64,000 nucleotides of DNA from assembly GCA_902781705.1 (NCBI GenBank), contig CACZKE010000009.1, forward strand, positions 38,613 through 102,612, given 5' to 3'. A program made the position numbers and the translations under genes. This document shows, one piece after another, positions 53,675-58,974 of the stretch. This DNA is from an uncultured Bacteroidia bacterium. Its GTDB lineage: Bacteria; Bacteroidota; Bacteroidia; Bacteroidales; UBA932. The notes beneath the pieces were generated by a model. It had not been told where the DNA came from. It saw only the letters and a list, made by a program, of their open reading frames with translations, and did not search any database. Positions within the stretch are counted from its first letter, which is position 1. Each line of letters begins with the position of its first letter.

Positions 53675-54013
53675 TTATTCGTTAAAAATGGAGGAATCCA
53701 GGCCGAGAAGTTGCATGCGCTGCCGGATGGCTGGGACTTCCTTCTCGATGAAATCCCTGCGCTGGGTTTCGAGGACGGTCTCCCGGGCGTCGTCCGCGAC
53801 GAAGTACCCGATGCCGCGCTTGTTGTAGATGATGCCGTCGGCGGTGAGTTTCTCGTAGGAGCGCATCATGGTGTTCGGGTTTACCCCGATGTCGGCACCG
53901 TACTCTCTCACGGAGGGGAGACGGTCCCCTCCCTTGAGTTCTCCCGAGAGGATGCGGTCGGCGAGCACATCCACGATCTGGAGATAGATGGGTTTTTCGG
54001 TATTGAAGTTCAT
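53675..54013 (-). CDS. GntR-family regulator, YtrA type
   Basis: A 112-residue repressor starting at ATG 54013 (MNFNTEKPIYLQIVDVLADR). The winged helix has the GntR signature LPSVREYGADIGVNPNTMMR (about residues 36-55) and IIYNKRGIGYFVADDA; the short C-terminal dimerisation tail is that of the YtrA subfamily, which usually controls linked ABC transporters. It is the third gene of the operon it probably represses, and a partial palindrome overlaps the operon start site. Confidence 0.9.
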   Translation of the reverse strand: MNFNTEKPIYLQIVDVLADRILSGELKGGDRLPSVREYGADIGVNPNTMMRSYEKLTADGIIYNKRGIGYFVADDARETVLETQRRDFIEKEVPAIRQRMQLLGLDSSIFNE

Positions 54014-54017
54014 GGTT

Positions 54018-54848
54018 CTAATGCTGCAGGGTTTTGATGCGGCGCCAGACACCCCAGCCAAGGCCGATGGTCAGGAGGCAGGTAAAGGCGACGAAAGCGT
54101 TCATGATGCCGGCCAGCCAGCGGGCAGCGGTCTGTTCGTCGATCGCGTCGAGATTCGAAAAAATCTGTTCCAGGTCCAGGTGCGGGATGATCAGGCCGCC
54201 AAGCAGGGACATCAGGGTGGAGATGCCGAAAAGGATGGCGATCGCTCCCACGATCTTGTTCTTCTTGAAGCAGATGCCGCAGAGAAGGAAATACAGGAAG
54301 TTGCAGAAGGTGCTCACGATGGCCGGGAACACGAGGCTCGCGGGCGTGAAGGTGATGGGAGAACCTTCATTGAAGGAACCGAGCGCATTCACGAAATCGC
54401 TGTAAACGCTGAAGAAACTGGTGGCCATGGCCTTCCCGTAGGTGGGATCCACCAGGCTCAGGAAGCCGTCCAGGAGGAAATACACCGCGAAGAAAAGAGC
54501 CGGAATGACGAGAATGGTCATCAGGACCATGGAGAGGCATTTCTCCGTCCCGGAAGCCGGGATCATGAGCCAGGAGGAACCGGCCTTCTTTTCGGTCAGA
54601 TAACCGTAAGTCCTTGTCTGATAGAGTTCCAGAACCAGGAAGGCGAACAGGAGGACGACAAAGCGGGCCGCAATGGGCGGAGCGGTCCAGGACTGGGTGA
54701 ACACGAGGCTGCCCAGGATCCAGAGGACATAGAAGATGATACCGGCACCGCCGATGAGGATGGCGGACTTGGAATGGTTCCGCCACATCTGCTTGAGGTC
54801 GTACTTGAAATAAGTCCAGAAGCGGTTGAAATTGAATGTTTCGTTCAT
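54018..54848 (-). CDS. ABC transporter permease-like membrane protein
   Basis: A 276-residue integral membrane protein with about six transmembrane helices, for example AILIGGAGIIFYVLWILGSL, ARFVVLLFAFLVLELYQ, LVMTILVIPALFFAVYFLL and GAIAILFGISTLMSLLGGLI. It is encoded 12 bases after the ATPase gene and 4 bases before the GntR gene, so it is the likely permease of the transporter. Substrate unknown; such YtrA-linked transporters often respond to envelope stress or peptides. Confidence 0.82.
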   Translation of the reverse strand: MNETFNFNRFWTYFKYDLKQMWRNHSKSAILIGGAGIIFYVLWILGSLVFTQSWTAPPIAARFVVLLFAFLVLELYQTRTYGYLTEKKAGSSWLMIPASGTEKCLSMVLMTILVIPALFFAVYFLLDGFLSLVDPTYGKAMATSFFSVYSDFVNALGSFNEGSPITFTPASLVFPAIVSTFCNFLYFLLCGICFKKNKIVGAIAILFGISTLMSLLGGLIIPHLDLEQIFSNLDAIDEQTAARWLAGIMNAFVAFTCLLTIGLGWGVWRRIKTLQH

Positions 54849-54860
54849 GGCCGGGAATGT

Positions 54861-55691
54861 TTACTGCTGGTTGAACATGGAACGGACGAGGTCCTTGTGG
54901 GCATGGACCGCATTGAAGAAGGCCTCGACATTGACCTTGCTTTCCTCGCCCGACGTGTTGGGATAGACCTGGATGCAGCCGCCGGGGGTCTGTTCCAGAT
55001 ACAGGGCGCCGGGATTCAGTTCGGAGCCGTAGTCAAAGAAGAGCTTGTCCGTGATTTCCTGGACGGAGGCGTTCACGAGGACGGCCCTGTTGTCCAGGAT
55101 GATGATCGGGTCGATGATGTTTTCCAGGTCCCGGACCTGGTGGGTGGAGATGATCAGGGCCGAATCCTCCGAGGTATACTTGGTCACGGCCTTGCGGAAC
55201 TGGGCCTTGGAAGGGATGTCCAGGCCGTTCGTGGGCTCGTCCAGATAGTAATACTTCGCGTTGCACGCGAGCGCGAAGGAGACCCAGGCCTTCTTGAGTT
55301 GTCCGGCGGACATCGCGTCCATGCGCTGCTCCGGTTCCACTTCGAACTCGGAGAGGATGGTCCGGAACTTTTCCAGGTCGAAGTGCGGCCAGAAGACGCC
55401 GTGCTCCTTCGCGAAGTCGATGGCGCGGGCGTGGACGGGGATGACCTCGTCCGGCAGATAGAACTGGTCCGCGAGCAGCGAAGGCTCCCGGTCGAAAGGA
55501 TTGCGGCCATCCACCGTGATGGTCCCGGACTCGGGTTTCTTGAGGCCGCAGAGCAGCGTGAGGAGCGTGGTCTTCCCCACCCCGTTCTCGCCGAGGAGTC
55601 CGTAGATATTGCCCTCGGACACCTTCAGGGAGATGTTTTCCAGTACGCGCTTGGCGCCGTAACTGAAGGAAAGATTGCTGATTTCGATCAT
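54861..55691 (-). CDS. ABC transporter ATP-binding protein
   Basis: A 276-residue ATPase from ATG 55691 (MIEISNLSFSYGAKRVLENI). Walker A is GLLGENGVGKTTLLTLL (about residues 32-48), the signature region is MSAGQLKKAWVSFALACN (about 135-152, with MSAGQ instead of LSGGQ), Walker B is KYYYLDEPTNGLDI (about 155-168) and the switch His is in LIISTHQVRDLE. It is the first gene of the ATPase-permease-GntR-DUF2807 operon. Confidence 0.93.
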   Translation of the reverse strand: MIEISNLSFSYGAKRVLENISLKVSEGNIYGLLGENGVGKTTLLTLLCGLKKPESGTITVDGRNPFDREPSLLADQFYLPDEVIPVHARAIDFAKEHGVFWPHFDLEKFRTILSEFEVEPEQRMDAMSAGQLKKAWVSFALACNAKYYYLDEPTNGLDIPSKAQFRKAVTKYTSEDSALIISTHQVRDLENIIDPIIILDNRAVLVNASVQEITDKLFFDYGSELNPGALYLEQTPGGCIQVYPNTSGEESKVNVEAFFNAVHAHKDLVRSMFNQQ

Positions 55692-55700
55692 ATCGTTTGT

Positions 55701-55722
55701 GTGTATTAGTTCATTAGTACAC
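55701..55722. promoter_or_regulatory. Candidate GntR/YtrA operator
   Basis: A 22-bp imperfect inverted repeat with perfect outer arms GTGTA/TACAC and internal TA/TA pairs, located between the -7 element and the ATPase start codon. The encoded YtrA-type GntR protein is the likely ligand. Confidence 0.55.
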
Positions 55723-55724
55723 TG

Positions 55725-55755
55725 CAAAGGTACAAACAAAAATCATAAATGCAAA
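55725..55755 (-). promoter_or_regulatory. Promoter of the ABC transporter-GntR operon
   Basis: Minus-strand TTTG (55752-55755), 19 bases, TACCTTTG (55725-55732). Confidence 0.75.
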
Positions 55756-55816
55756 TTTTATTACGATTTTTTTCAAAACTTTGAGCAGGACTCTTTACGA
55801 AGTCTTTGAAACGCCG

Positions 55817-55824
55817 TATCTTTG
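55817..55824 (+). promoter_or_regulatory. -7 promoter element of the phosphate cotransporter gene
   Basis: TATCTTTG, with a weak -33 (TTTA, 55793-55796) at 20 bases. Only 4 bases separate it from the ATG at 55829, so the transcript is probably leaderless. Confidence 0.55.
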
Positions 55825-55828
55825 CAGT

Positions 55829-57778
55829 ATGATCCTGACCTTATTCAAAATGCTCGGCTGCATCGCCCTGCTCATGTACGGCATGAAGGTGATGAGCGAA
55901 GCCCTCCAGAAAATGGCCGGTCCCGGCCTCCGTCACATCCTCGGTGCGATGACCACCAACCGCTTCACCGGCGTCCTGACCGGTATGCTGGTGTGCGTGG
56001 CGGTCCAGTCTTCCGCTGCAACCACCGTCATGACGGTTTCCTTCGTCAATGCGGCCCTGCTGTCCCTGGCCCAGGCGATCTCGGTCATCATGGGCGCCAA
56101 CATCGGCACCACCCTGTCAGCCTGGATCATGTCCGCCGGCTTTTCCTTCAACATCGCGAACCTGGTCTGGCCGGTCTTCCTCATTGCGGTCGTCCTGATC
56201 CAGTTCAAGAAGCACCGGTACCTGGGCGACTTCCTCTTCGGCCTTTCCTTCATGTTCTTCGCCCTCGGGACGCTGAACGTGACCGGCCGCGAGATGGACC
56301 TGGCGCACAATGAAGGGGTCATCAATTTCTTCTCGTCCTTCGACTCGGGCAGTTACCTGACCATCCTCCTGTTCCTCGTGATCGGCACCATCCTCACCGT
56401 CATCGCGCAGTCTTCCGCCGCCCTGATGGCCATCACCATGGTCCTGTGCACCAGCGGCGTCCTGACCATCTACCAGGGTATCGCCCTGGTCCTCGGCGAG
56501 AACATCGGCACAACCGTCACGGCCAATGTCGCAGCCCTGTCGGCCAATACGCAGGCCCGGAGGGCAGCCCTCGCGCACCTTCTTTTCAACGTATTCGGCG
56601 TCCTCTGGGTGCTGTGCCTGTTCTATCCCTTCGTAAATGCGGCCTGCTCCCTCGTGGGAGTGGACCCGCACGCGGAAACGCAGAGTGCCACCCGGCTTTC
56701 CTTCGTCCTGGCCACCTTCCATACGATGTTCAACGTGTCCAACACCGCCATCCTCATCTGGTTCATCCCGCAGTTGGAGAAGCTGGTCACGAAACTCATC
56801 CCGCAGAAGGCCTCCGAGGAGGAATTCCGTCTGCAGTACATCCAGAGCGGTATCATGAAGACACCGGAAATCTCCGTCCTGCAGGCGCAGAAGGAGACCG
56901 AGCTCTTCGCCGAGCGGATGCATCAGATGTTCACGCTGGTCATCGAACTGTATGGGGAAACCAAGGAAGAGGATTTCCAGAAGAAGGTGGACCGCATCCG
57001 CGAGATGGAACAGATGTCCGACCGGCTGGAAAGCGAGATCGGCAGCTACCTGGCCCAGGTCTCCGATGCGCACCTGAGTGACGACACCAAGCGCAAGATC
57101 CGTACGATGCTCCGCGCCGTGAGCGAACTCGAGAGTATCGGCGACAGCTGCCAGAACCTCTCCCGCCACATCGAGCGCAAGCGTCGCGAAAAGGCGCAGT
57201 TCCTCCCCGAACAGGAGAACGGCATCGCCACGATGTTCGACCTGCTCAGCCAGGCCTTCACCAACATGGACCTCGTGATGAAGGGACAGGGTGATCCGGA
57301 CCTCTCCTGGACCCTGGAGAACCAGATCGACGCCCTCCGCGACCGGCTGCGTTCCCAGAATACCGAAGACGTGGACGCCGGCAAGTACTCCTTCGCCGTG
57401 GGCACCATCTACGTGGACCTCGTCCGCGAATGCGAGAAACTGGGCGACTATATCATCAACGTCGTGGAATCCAAGAAGGGCAAGCGCGAGGACGCGGCCG
57501 ACCTGGACGCCCTCCATGTGGACCACCAGAAGAAGATCGCCAAGCTCGGCGGCGAACCCCTGGACCTCTCCAAGACCGAATTCGAGATCCTGAGCCTCCT
57601 GGTCTCCAACCCCGGACGCGTCTTCTCCCAGCAGGAACTCCTGGACGCCGTCTGGCCCCAGGACGCCGGCGCCAGCCCCCGCAACGTGGACGCCGACATC
57701 CGCCACATCCGCGCCCTCCTCGGCGACCTCTCCTCCCACATCCTCAACAAGTCCGGTTTCGGGTATTATTTCGAATAG
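55829..57778 (+). CDS. Na+/phosphate cotransporter fused to PhoU-like and PhoB-type DNA-binding domains
   Basis: A 649-residue protein. Residues about 1-325 are a NptA/PNaS-type sodium:phosphate symporter with both QSSA signature repeats (QSSAATT 60-66 and QSSAALM 194-200) and matching MGANIGTT (88-95) and GENIGTT (223-229) motifs. Residues about 345-555 are a helical PhoU-like regulatory region. Residues 574-649 form a complete OmpR/PhoB-type winged helix: LSKTEFEILSLLVSNPGRVF, then SQQELLDAVW, NVDADIRHIRALLG and GFGYYFE. Transporter plus PhoU is normal; the DNA-binding end is not. No frameshift separates the parts. The start matches the family N-terminus. Confidence 0.93.
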   Translation: MILTLFKMLGCIALLMYGMKVMSEALQKMAGPGLRHILGAMTTNRFTGVLTGMLVCVAVQSSAATTVMTVSFVNAALLSLAQAISVIMGANIGTTLSAWIMSAGFSFNIANLVWPVFLIAVVLIQFKKHRYLGDFLFGLSFMFFALGTLNVTGREMDLAHNEGVINFFSSFDSGSYLTILLFLVIGTILTVIAQSSAALMAITMVLCTSGVLTIYQGIALVLGENIGTTVTANVAALSANTQARRAALAHLLFNVFGVLWVLCLFYPFVNAACSLVGVDPHAETQSATRLSFVLATFHTMFNVSNTAILIWFIPQLEKLVTKLIPQKASEEEFRLQYIQSGIMKTPEISVLQAQKETELFAERMHQMFTLVIELYGETKEEDFQKKVDRIREMEQMSDRLESEIGSYLAQVSDAHLSDDTKRKIRTMLRAVSELESIGDSCQNLSRHIERKRREKAQFLPEQENGIATMFDLLSQAFTNMDLVMKGQGDPDLSWTLENQIDALRDRLRSQNTEDVDAGKYSFAVGTIYVDLVRECEKLGDYIINVVESKKGKREDAADLDALHVDHQKKIAKLGGEPLDLSKTEFEILSLLVSNPGRVFSQQELLDAVWPQDAGASPRNVDADIRHIRALLGDLSSHILNKSGFGYYFE

Positions 57779-58158
57779 GATAAAGCCACGATTCTTTCCA
57801 ACGCCTCCATCACCTGCTTGAATTCATTCACCAGGGTCGGTTGAGGCTTCGGCCCCGGCTTCCCGGAAGCCAGGGGTGCGATTTCCTGGATCCTGGCTGT
57901 CAGCATGTCGTCGAGCTGCTTCTTTTTCGCTTCAGGGAGAAAGACACATCGGCCCATGTCAATGCCAGGACCTCGCCCACGCTGATCCCGGACGTCAGAA
58001 TCAGGTATATGCTCAGGTTCTTGGTCTCTTGTATATTGTCGCAACAGTGTCGCTCCCAAAGATCGTTTCTGACGTACTTTCCACCCAAACCGCAAAAACT
58101 TGAAGCGCACCCATCGGCCCTGTGCGCAGTATATCGTCGATTCGCGGTCTTTACCCAC
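57766..58158 (-). pseudogene. Decayed integrase region
   Basis: Minus-strand frames hold fragments only. One frame (57900-58088) reads LILTSGISVGEVLALTWADV, which resembles the box-I helix of tyrosine recombinases but has Ser where the catalytic Arg is expected, and stops soon after. Another frame (57766-58158) ends EIAPLASGKPGPKPQPTLVN, then EFKQVMEALERIVALSYSK, plausible protein sequence of unknown origin. No intact gene is present; it overlaps the end of the cotransporter gene by 13 bases. Confidence 0.45.
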
Positions 58159-58337
58159 TTGGGGAAAGCTGGCTAAAGAGCACCTATCGGCCTCCTACAC
58201 CCTTCCAGGACAGGTACGTGCGCTTCAAGTTTTCATGGGGCAATAGCTGGCAAGGACTGTCATGGCCAATTCTCCCCGCAAAGCCAACCACGAACGGCTG
58301 GAAGAGAACTGATTGATGTATATCCAGTTCAAACATC
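58159..58337. other. Non-coding remnant sequence
   Basis: No gene can be supported. A plus-strand frame (about 58150-58247) reading LAKEHLSASYTLPGQVRALQ and ending VFMGQ could be a fragment of a lost gene. Confidence 0.3.
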
Positions 58338-58372
58338 AAGACCTTCACTTTCCGGTGAGGGTCTTTATTTTA
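58338..58372 (+). terminator. Terminator-like hairpin in remnant region
   Basis: AAGACCTTCAC (58338-58348) pairs with GTGAGGGTCTT (58355-58365) with one G-U pair, followed by TATTTTAT. It could act on either strand. Confidence 0.6.
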
Positions 58373-58396
58373 TCCTCTAATCCAGTGAGATTCCGC

Positions 58397-58493
58397 CTCC
58401 GTCTCCATCTCACTGCTAATGTCCCGACTCTCCAGGATCTGTTCTCTCGTAAGCATCGCTTTCCCTTTTTTGCAAAAGTAGCGAGGTGCTTAC
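58397..58493 (-). mobile_element. IS66-family left-end remnant (inner copy)
   Basis: A second IS66-like end, minus-strand GTAAGCACCTCGCTACTTTT, begins at 58493 inside the tnpB-like frame of the outer copy. It is followed by a short truncated reading frame starting MLTREQILESRDISS (ATG at 58456), which resembles the start of the outer orf1. The rest of this copy is gone. Confidence 0.55.
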
Positions 58494-58619
58494 GTCCCCG
58501 CTACGAAGCTTTTCGCACATGGCGTTCGTCACGATACCGCTCAGCCCGTTGAAGCTTTTGCGCATATCAACGGGCCTGTTATACAGCCAGTACCGGCAGG
58601 TGTCGTCCAGACTAAACAT
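58487..58619 (-). pseudogene. IS66 TnpB-like fragment
   Basis: The frame from ATG 58619 begins MFSLDDTCRYWLYNRPVDMR and continues KSFNGLSGIVTN to RSGDV, the conserved start of IS66 Orf2/TnpB (about 43 of the usual 115 residues). The similarity stops exactly where the inner IS66 end begins, so the gene was interrupted by a second insertion. It overlaps the end of orf1 by a few bases, as in intact IS66 elements. Confidence 0.75.
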
Positions 58620-58974
58620 TCCCTGAGAGTATTGCACGCAGATGATCCGCGGTTATACTGCCATGGATGCGCATGGCTAAACCGCCGGGAGTGCGCAACT
58701 CTACCGTCAGAAAACTTTCCGGGGTGTTTGTTCCGCCCGTCTGAGTATTACGCCTCACGTTTCTGACAGGCATCATCCCGGAGCTGAACATTCCTGGAAC
58801 CATCTGGACAAACTCACCGGATCCCTCATGACTCTCATCCTCCAGGCGGTACTTGCGTTTCGCCTTGTAGAACTGCCAAAACGGGATCTCAAGCTCGTCA
58901 AGGCGCTTGCGGTAGCTCATCTTGTGTTCCTGGCAGTACTGGTCTATCGCCAGGATTTCTTCTCGTGTCATCAT
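58612..58974 (-). CDS. IS66 Orf1 (TnpA-like) protein
   Basis: A 120-residue accessory protein of an IS66 element. The N-terminus MMTREEILAIDQYCQEHKMS and LDELEIPFWQFYKAKRKYR is a compact HTH-like region; the C-terminus ELRTPGGLAMRIHGSITADH is the common IS66 Orf1 end. The frame is intact, but orf2 is broken and the transposase orf3 is absent, so the element cannot move on its own. The outer IS end, GTAAGCATCCGAGC on the minus strand, lies at 59042. Confidence 0.8.
   Translation of the reverse strand: MMTREEILAIDQYCQEHKMSYRKRLDELEIPFWQFYKAKRKYRLEDESHEGSGEFVQMVPGMFSSGMMPVRNVRRNTQTGGTNTPESFLTVELRTPGGLAMRIHGSITADHLRAILSGNV

Follow-up and report, generated by a model that had tools for sequence, protein, structure and literature searches.

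A single gene of an uncultured Bacteroidia bacterium encodes, in one polypeptide chain, a putative Na/Pi symporter of the NptA type, a PhoU-like domain and a complete PhoB-type DNA-binding winged-helix domain. We favour, with moderate confidence, the interpretation that this gene is a collapsed phosphate-signalling pathway, namely, a membrane-tethered one-component regulator whose main target, in the conservative forms of the fusion, would be its own promoter. As for the further proposal that an active phosphate transporter is its own transcription factor through feedback on its own promoter, that this state was reached at least three times and that the DNA-reading helix and the operator changed together, we consider the chances to be about even.

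The gene lies in what we refer to as the window, that is, the whole 64,000-nucleotide stretch of DNA that was analysed, and comprises a single unbroken frame of 649 codons followed by a stop (Table 1). Each of the three domains originally predicted from the translation was matched by its Pfam profile: Na_Pi_cotrans (4.3e-53, in two stretches), PhoU (1.8e-9, also in two stretches) and Trans_reg_C, the latter over the complete profile (6.5e-19; residues 575-648, profile positions 1-77 of 77). Two QSSA motifs (residues ~60-63 and ~194-197) and a TIGR00704 match above the cut-off (residues 2-327) place the protein in the NptA/TIGR00704 family as a putative phosphate transporter; the NCBIfam model NaPi_cotrn_rel also scores above its curated cut-off (222.1 vs 210.1 bits), and TIGR02135, which covers residues 363-548, scores below its own. 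Residues 549-649 correspond to the last 101 positions (125-225) of the NCBIfam Bacteroidota PhoB model (8.5e-24). The match begins at model position 125, so the aligned part is the region after the receiver domain, and the score of the full-length model is far below the cut-off because only half of the protein is present. No match to the Pfam Response_reg receiver was found anywhere in the fused protein up to an E-value of 10, so that, having no receiver with the phospho-acceptor aspartate, the protein is not a response regulator: it contains the Trans_reg_C winged helix of the OmpR/PhoB family and lacks the N-terminal receiver. With a DNA-binding domain and a membrane part in one chain and with neither kinase nor receiver, it has the architecture of a transmembrane one-component regulator.

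Table 1. Features of the fused gene and of its upstream region (positions in the window)
Feature	Coordinates	Strand	Remarks
Weak degenerate pho-box-like repeat, 12 of 14	55761..55778	+	56 bp upstream of the -7 element; p 0.13
-7 promoter element TATCTTTG	55817..55824	+	starts 12 bases before the ATG
Whole fused gene, NptA + PhoU + PhoB-type winged helix	55829..57778	+	649 aa, stop within the coordinates
Na/Pi symporter part, residues 2-327, both QSSA repeats	55832..56809	+	TIGR00704, Pfam Na_Pi_cotrans
PhoU-like helical domain, residues ~362-548	56912..57472	+	Pfam PhoU, TIGR02135, model helices, fold match 2i0m
Junction and linker, residues 549-561	57473..57511	+	PhoB-model match starts at 549; low pLDDT
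OmpR/PhoB-type winged-helix domain, residues 562-649	57512..57775	+	Pfam, NCBIfam, model, fold match, dN/dS
Recognition helix alpha3, model residues 617-637	57677..57739	+	N619, A622, H626 changed; R628 kept

In the AlphaFold model of the protein (mean pLDDT 78.8), the low pTM of 0.48 and poorly predicted parts of the transporter make the placement of the domains unreliable; the model contains an ordered PhoU bundle, a floppy stretch at residues 551-559 (pLDDT <50) and then an OmpR-type winged helix. The best PDB match in a Foldseek search was the effector domain of PhoB bound to pho box DNA (1gxp_E; E 2.5e-4, TM 0.78 over the target), and the PhoU domain matched 2i0m (E 5.9e-3, TM 0.84 over the target). 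The combination of NptA, PhoU and a complete winged helix in one frame is borne out by the profiles, the model and the fold matches alike. The neighbouring genes in the window are on the minus strand: a GntR regulator, an open reading frame without a Pfam match and an ABC ATPase diverge from the fused gene (53678-55739), and downstream are two open reading frames without Pfam matches (57769-58974), one of which (58615-58974) we take to resemble an IS66-type accessory protein.

The same fusion recurs within the genus: in a sample of 200 genomes taken from a larger group, the window's own among them, at least 29 encode it. Five of these 29 have two fused copies, and in one (G117) the match extends only from residue 85 onward. 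The named metagenome-assembled genome UBA3289 encodes a fused protein with 96% identity to the window copy, and on a contig of UBA1237, a low-completeness genome, an 87%-identical fused gene is broken over several frames (L018/L159). The named relatives are mainly uncultured Bacteroidales or Bacteroidia, and many of the record titles cite ruminant stomach samples. Outside the genus, a fused gene was detected in G586 (family f55, 55% identity), the only one among the matches listed for 393 genomes of the order (E<=1e-100), and a further one in L141, a member of the Bacteroidaceae from yak reticulum. A draw from the entire phylum (395 genomes, strict limit of 1e-120, 10 matched) yielded no fusion except the window's own, and none of the 10 plasmid matches listed, from 12 records with NptA matches, extends to the winged helix. 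The winged helix is, as had been predicted, not a chance extension, given that the same fusion recurs in other genomes. We found no description of a fusion of this type in the literature searched, which was part of the published literature.

The likely ancestor of the fusion, with the order of events read from a comparison of relatives, is an nptA-phoB-phoR operon. At 10 loci, two of which (L065 and L118) are identical in sequence, phoB and a gene for a PhoR-like kinase lie downstream of nptA in the same orientation, and the same arrangement, judged by coordinates, is found in G084 and G190. No neighbouring regulator or kinase gene of this type was detected at 56 fused loci (some of them the same gene from two collections; 54 with at least 1000 and 28 with at least 2500 bases downstream), the single match, at L147, being a long frame on the opposite strand. 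At the junctions, the C terminus of NptA runs into the PhoB linker, and these junctions differ from group to group. In an NptA-domain tree of a quick kind, with 103 rows (44 fused, 9 operon and 50 unfused, or solo), the fused label requires 14 changes, at least 8 of which are forced by starred branches. L141 falls inside a Prevotella operon clade on starred branches, on a long branch and with its placement flagged as unsure; clade A, to which the window copy belongs, is closer to an operon-bearing group than to the other fused clade, B; and clades A and B as a single clade are rejected on the quick tree (AU p 0.0006), the grouping having been named after the tree had been seen. In a tree of the winged-helix domain, with few columns and weak support, clade A groups with the PhoBs of these operon-bearing relatives (66/84), and the neighbours of L141 and G586 are PhoBs of the Prevotella group and the Muribaculaceae. 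We take the NptA tree as evidence for three or more separate fusion events, for which the winged-helix tree provides weaker support, and a single origin of all of them is disfavoured by both trees and the AU test. Solo rows are nested within the fused clades (5 of 32 in A, 16 of 32 in B), which suggests that the winged-helix domain was lost again in some lineages. No significant remnant of it was found in the 65 stretches searched downstream of unfused genes, where the search recovered the 10 phoB genes of the operons, the fragmented L018/L159 contig in both copies and, insignificantly, L126 (E 0.049). At four loci (L048, L049, L023 and L031), a PhoB-type gene is divergent beside a distant nptA (~40-48% identical), so the association of the two genes may be older than the operon.

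In the window's genome, which is 99% complete, the fused domain is the only Trans_reg_C match, ten receiver-domain matches are in other proteins, and no PhoR-like kinase was found at E<=1e-20. PstC did not score above the cut-off in any of the 26 genomes searched (two weak matches in the window's genome, 29 and 25 bits vs the cut-off of 196), and Pit did so only in G213 and G091, with none in the window's genome, which encodes a second NptA (30% identity) without a winged helix. Another Trans_reg_C match is absent in 21 of the 29 fused genomes and a PhoR-like match at E<=1e-20 in 19; the PhoR-like matches in the remaining 10 reach 40% identity only in G062, G213 and G091. Among 44 unfused relatives, 28 likewise lack a Trans_reg_C match; PhoB loss is thus a genus-wide trend, and the idea that it is confined to the fused genomes is ruled out. 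Many of the genomes compared are incomplete. In G213 (contig C7, L174) and G091 (contig C29, L175), an extra PhoB-type regulator and a kinase adjoin a Pit-family gene and may constitute an additional phosphate system distinct from the first.

PhoB contacts DNA bases specifically via T194, V197, R201 and R219 (PMC3264566). Three of these are replaced in the window copy, namely, T194N (N619), V197A (A622) and R201H (H626), with R203 (R628) kept, whereas L141 and the clade B rows that have a RTVDVNITRIRKK helix retain the T, V and R; the helix register relative to E. coli PhoB was checked for L141, and the wing residue R219 is not surely placed. At eight DNA-side positions of the helix (T194, V197, R201 and R203 from PMC3264566, the other four from our reading of the helix), L141 and 8 of 15 clade B rows carry at every position a residue seen in 15 free PhoBs, and the number of positions so kept is 3-6 in subclade A2, 1-4 in A1, the window's subclade, and 4 in the window copy itself. 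A point against the interpretation that we favour is the net charge, which averages about -2 in the fused domains of clades A and B, compared with +1.3 in free PhoB; in L141 it is +5.

The TATCTTTG element upstream of the fused gene fits what we take to be the Bacteroidales -7 consensus, TAnnTTTG. In the window and in the clade A genes checked (e.g. L057, L059 and L098), the -7 element starts only 12-13 bases before the ATG, so that a leader may be lacking in the transcript; in clade B (e.g. L007), this distance is ~26. The promoters of several operon and fused genes contain an 11-bp direct repeat, TTAMAAT-N4-TTAMAAT (TTAAAATTCTGTTACAAT in clade B), which in the fused genes is mostly 52-56 bp upstream of the -7 element and has the operator geometry of the PhoB family, as in the E. 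coli pho box. The PhoP operator consists of 7-bp repeats with a 4-bp spacer (PMC4832192). The exact repeat has 10 matches in 13 whole genomes, six of them within 100 bp upstream of nptA, namely, the fused genes of G003, G027, G028 and G173 (4 of the 10 fused genomes searched) and the operons of G016 and G084; the other four precede unrelated or unclear genes. The pattern was chosen after promoters had been viewed, including five of these six (all but that of G084), and therefore the finding is the rarity of the repeat elsewhere. With one mismatch allowed, there are 70 matches, compared with 56 for a backwards-read control, and no wider regulon shows; a one-mismatch site common to G003 and G173 (L200, L199) has no convincing gene behind it. 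A second exact repeat in G028 (L178, G028:C55:25620), 2.8 kb upstream of the fused gene, has no clear gene behind it.

The presence of this pho-box-like repeat goes together with the state of the helix. Among 27 anchored rows of clades B, A2 and C, with an intact helix defined as V-N/H at residues 622-623 and with the A1 rows and four rows without a -7 anchor (L010, L037, L060, L096) omitted, the repeat (at least 11 of 14) is at the fixed place in 12 of 15 genes with an intact helix vs 1 of 12 with an altered one (Fisher p 3e-4); in tree-independent pairs, about three agree, none disagree and two show no difference (p 0.25). Ten further loci, two of them without upstream sequence (L072, L172), were classified by the same rule, and a perfect box was found in 4 of 4 intact and 0 of 4 altered ones, the promoters being previously unviewed yet mostly from close kin of the viewed clade B rows. 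The helix of G586 has I-N, and if I is allowed, this gene becomes intact and the counts become 4 of 5 vs 0 of 3; by eye, a repeat on the opposite strand is common to G586 and L141. When the last 120 bases were searched on either strand (12 of 14 required, I also allowed at 622 so that G586 counts as intact, and L018, L093 and L159 omitted), the repeat was present in 12 of 16 intact, 3 of 16 altered, 2 of 11 A1, 3 of 6 operon and 2 of 46 solo genes. The box and half-site patterns were picked after looking at promoters, so the counts at the fixed place and over the last 120 bases, the p value of the window's own repeat and the TTGATAA counts given below are post hoc. As far as comparison of genes can tell, the association of the repeat with an intact helix, for which tree-independent support is thin, suggests autoregulation by the membrane-tethered transporter. 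In three genomes with two fused copies, one copy (G003:C19, L037; G173:C17, L173; G088:C13, L166) has an altered, RVVDTYINRLRRK-like helix and neither a -7 element nor a box, as if it were transcribed from an upstream gene. The DNA target of the window copy itself is apparently changed or lost, because three base-contact residues are replaced and there is no significant box. The original prediction was that the protein could sense phosphate flux and act on transcription directly, without a kinase or receiver. Direct action on transcription agrees with the lack of a receiver in the protein and of any other Trans_reg_C match or PhoR-like kinase (E<=1e-20) in the genome, as well as with the box at most relatives with an intact helix, but for the window copy it is weakened by the diverged DNA face and the insignificant box (p 0.13).

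Conceivably, although we consider this rather unlikely, the winged helix of the window's subclade is no longer a DNA reader but a structural or protein-contact cap that regulates transport via PhoU. In free PhoB the DNA face varies less than nearly all of the domain (0.7% of random 8-position sets are as low); it is average in B (39%), highly variable in A2 (6% of random sets reach its value) and among the most variable parts in A1 (0.4%), with the buried helix positions nearly fixed across the fused rows; the dN/dS of the DNA face is 0.43-0.61 vs 0.12-0.22 for the rest of the domain (0.61 vs 0.12 in A1). The three replaced contacts of the window copy would fit such a cap, and the promoters of the window and L084 have neither a significant pho-box-like repeat nor the TTGATAA motif that 8 of 11 A1 genes have 45-47 bp ahead of the -7 element, close to the position of the second half-site. 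However, R203 and a basic wing residue are retained in 11 of 11 A1 rows, in which the helix is of another type, and TTGATAA near the pho-box place is consistent with a changed operator, relaxed constraint being a possible alternative.

It is also unlikely that the fusion is a decaying by-product of the loss of the Pho system, with the winged helix as tolerated cargo on its way out. The unfused rows in clades A and B could be the end point of such decay, and the fast-changing DNA face of clade A, the missing Trans_reg_C in unfused relatives and a winged-helix ratio of ~0.35 between the window copy and its nearest relative, L084 (dN 0.053, dS 0.149, 75 codons), which exceeds that of the other domains, are compatible with it. 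Nevertheless, the median dN/dS of the whole winged helix is 0.14 in A1, 0.19 in A2, 0.23 between A1 and A2 and 0.25 in B, whereas the transporter has 0.03-0.09 and PhoU 0.06-0.22 (with synonymous sites close to saturation and pairs without usable dS dropped, so that 31 of 55 A1 winged-helix pairs were used); moreover, the buried helix positions barely change, and the box is retained alongside the intact helix, also in the previously unviewed loci. These readings overlap with the less likely possibility that the window's domain does something else. Release of the winged helix by proteolytic cleavage under some condition, such that it works as a soluble regulator, appears quite improbable: the low-confidence linker in the AlphaFold model might offer a cleavage site, but CadC/ToxR-type proteins act while membrane-bound. 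An error of sequencing, assembly or binning that joined two genes can be dismissed with near certainty, considering the identical fusion in many separately assembled genomes and that nothing was found in its favour.

The combination of a transporter with a signalling output is not without parallels. In CbrA-type transporter-like histidine kinases, a solute symporter module is joined to a signalling output, which is a histidine kinase, whereas in the fusion it is a DNA-binding domain. CadC and ToxR cross the membrane once and have their winged helix at the N terminus and a sensor domain in the periplasm. The fusion shares with transmembrane regulators of this type an OmpR/PhoB-type winged helix on a membrane protein without a kinase (PMC10269533, PMC5430869), and to this extent the CadC/ToxR-like layout originally proposed holds; however, its winged helix is C-terminal, after a multi-pass transporter and PhoU, and it falls outside the CadC/ToxR family proper. 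A survey describes such regulators with up to 22 transmembrane regions, and no transporter of this kind was seen in the passages covered of PMC10269533 and PMC5430869. In the literature searched, the nearest precedent for the collapse of a two-component system into one membrane protein is Neisseria Rsp, which joins the PilS receptor to the PilR DNA-binding domain (PMC10269533); Rsp has a different sensor and a DNA-binding domain of another family, and is not a transporter. In Staphylococcus aureus NptA, as in the fusion, the transporter and a PhoU domain form one chain, so the original statement that these are separate in known systems was too strong, and this PhoU domain represses the phosphate two-component system, with separate PhoR and PhoP, acting on the kinase PhoR (PMC13170248). 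By contrast, the fusion carries the DNA-binding domain of PhoB within the transporter chain itself, and no second Trans_reg_C or PhoR-like kinase was found in the genome. The effector-domain fold is that of PhoB (E. coli, 1GXP; Bacteroides fragilis, PMC3547664), and relatives of the window copy have the 11-bp direct repeat; unlike PhoB, the fusion lacks a receiver and is membrane-tethered, and the reading helix of the window copy is altered. No transporter carrying an OmpR/PhoB-type DNA-binding domain was found in the part of the literature that was searched.

Under the interpretation that we favour, a collapsed phosphate-signalling pathway, the starting point would be the nptA-phoB-phoR operon, from which several lineages would have lost the nptA stop codon and the phoB receiver domain, so that PhoU became joined to the PhoB linker and DNA-binding domain; phoR would also have disappeared from the locus. 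The PhoU domain would probably hold or release the DNA-binding domain, presumably by masking it, depending on transport or cytoplasmic phosphate, and the phosphate signal would reach the DNA directly, via the joint between the PhoU and PhoB domains and without a kinase. The main target of the conservative forms would be their own promoter, with the 11-bp repeat at a constant spacing ahead of the -7 element, and the sign of regulation would probably be activation under phosphate shortage, as for PhoB. In the window's lineage, the reading helix would have been rewritten and the operator changed with it or, less likely, the domain may have acquired another function.

How phosphate transport is reported through PhoU to PhoR and PhoB is a long-standing open question. 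With the transporter, PhoU and the PhoB DNA-binding domain in one chain, the step from PhoU to the output could be tested in isolation, without a kinase or receiver. If the proposed scenario is correct, the transporter would control the expression of its own gene from within the membrane, a state reached repeatedly by the same type of deletion, with relatives that preserve the operon form.
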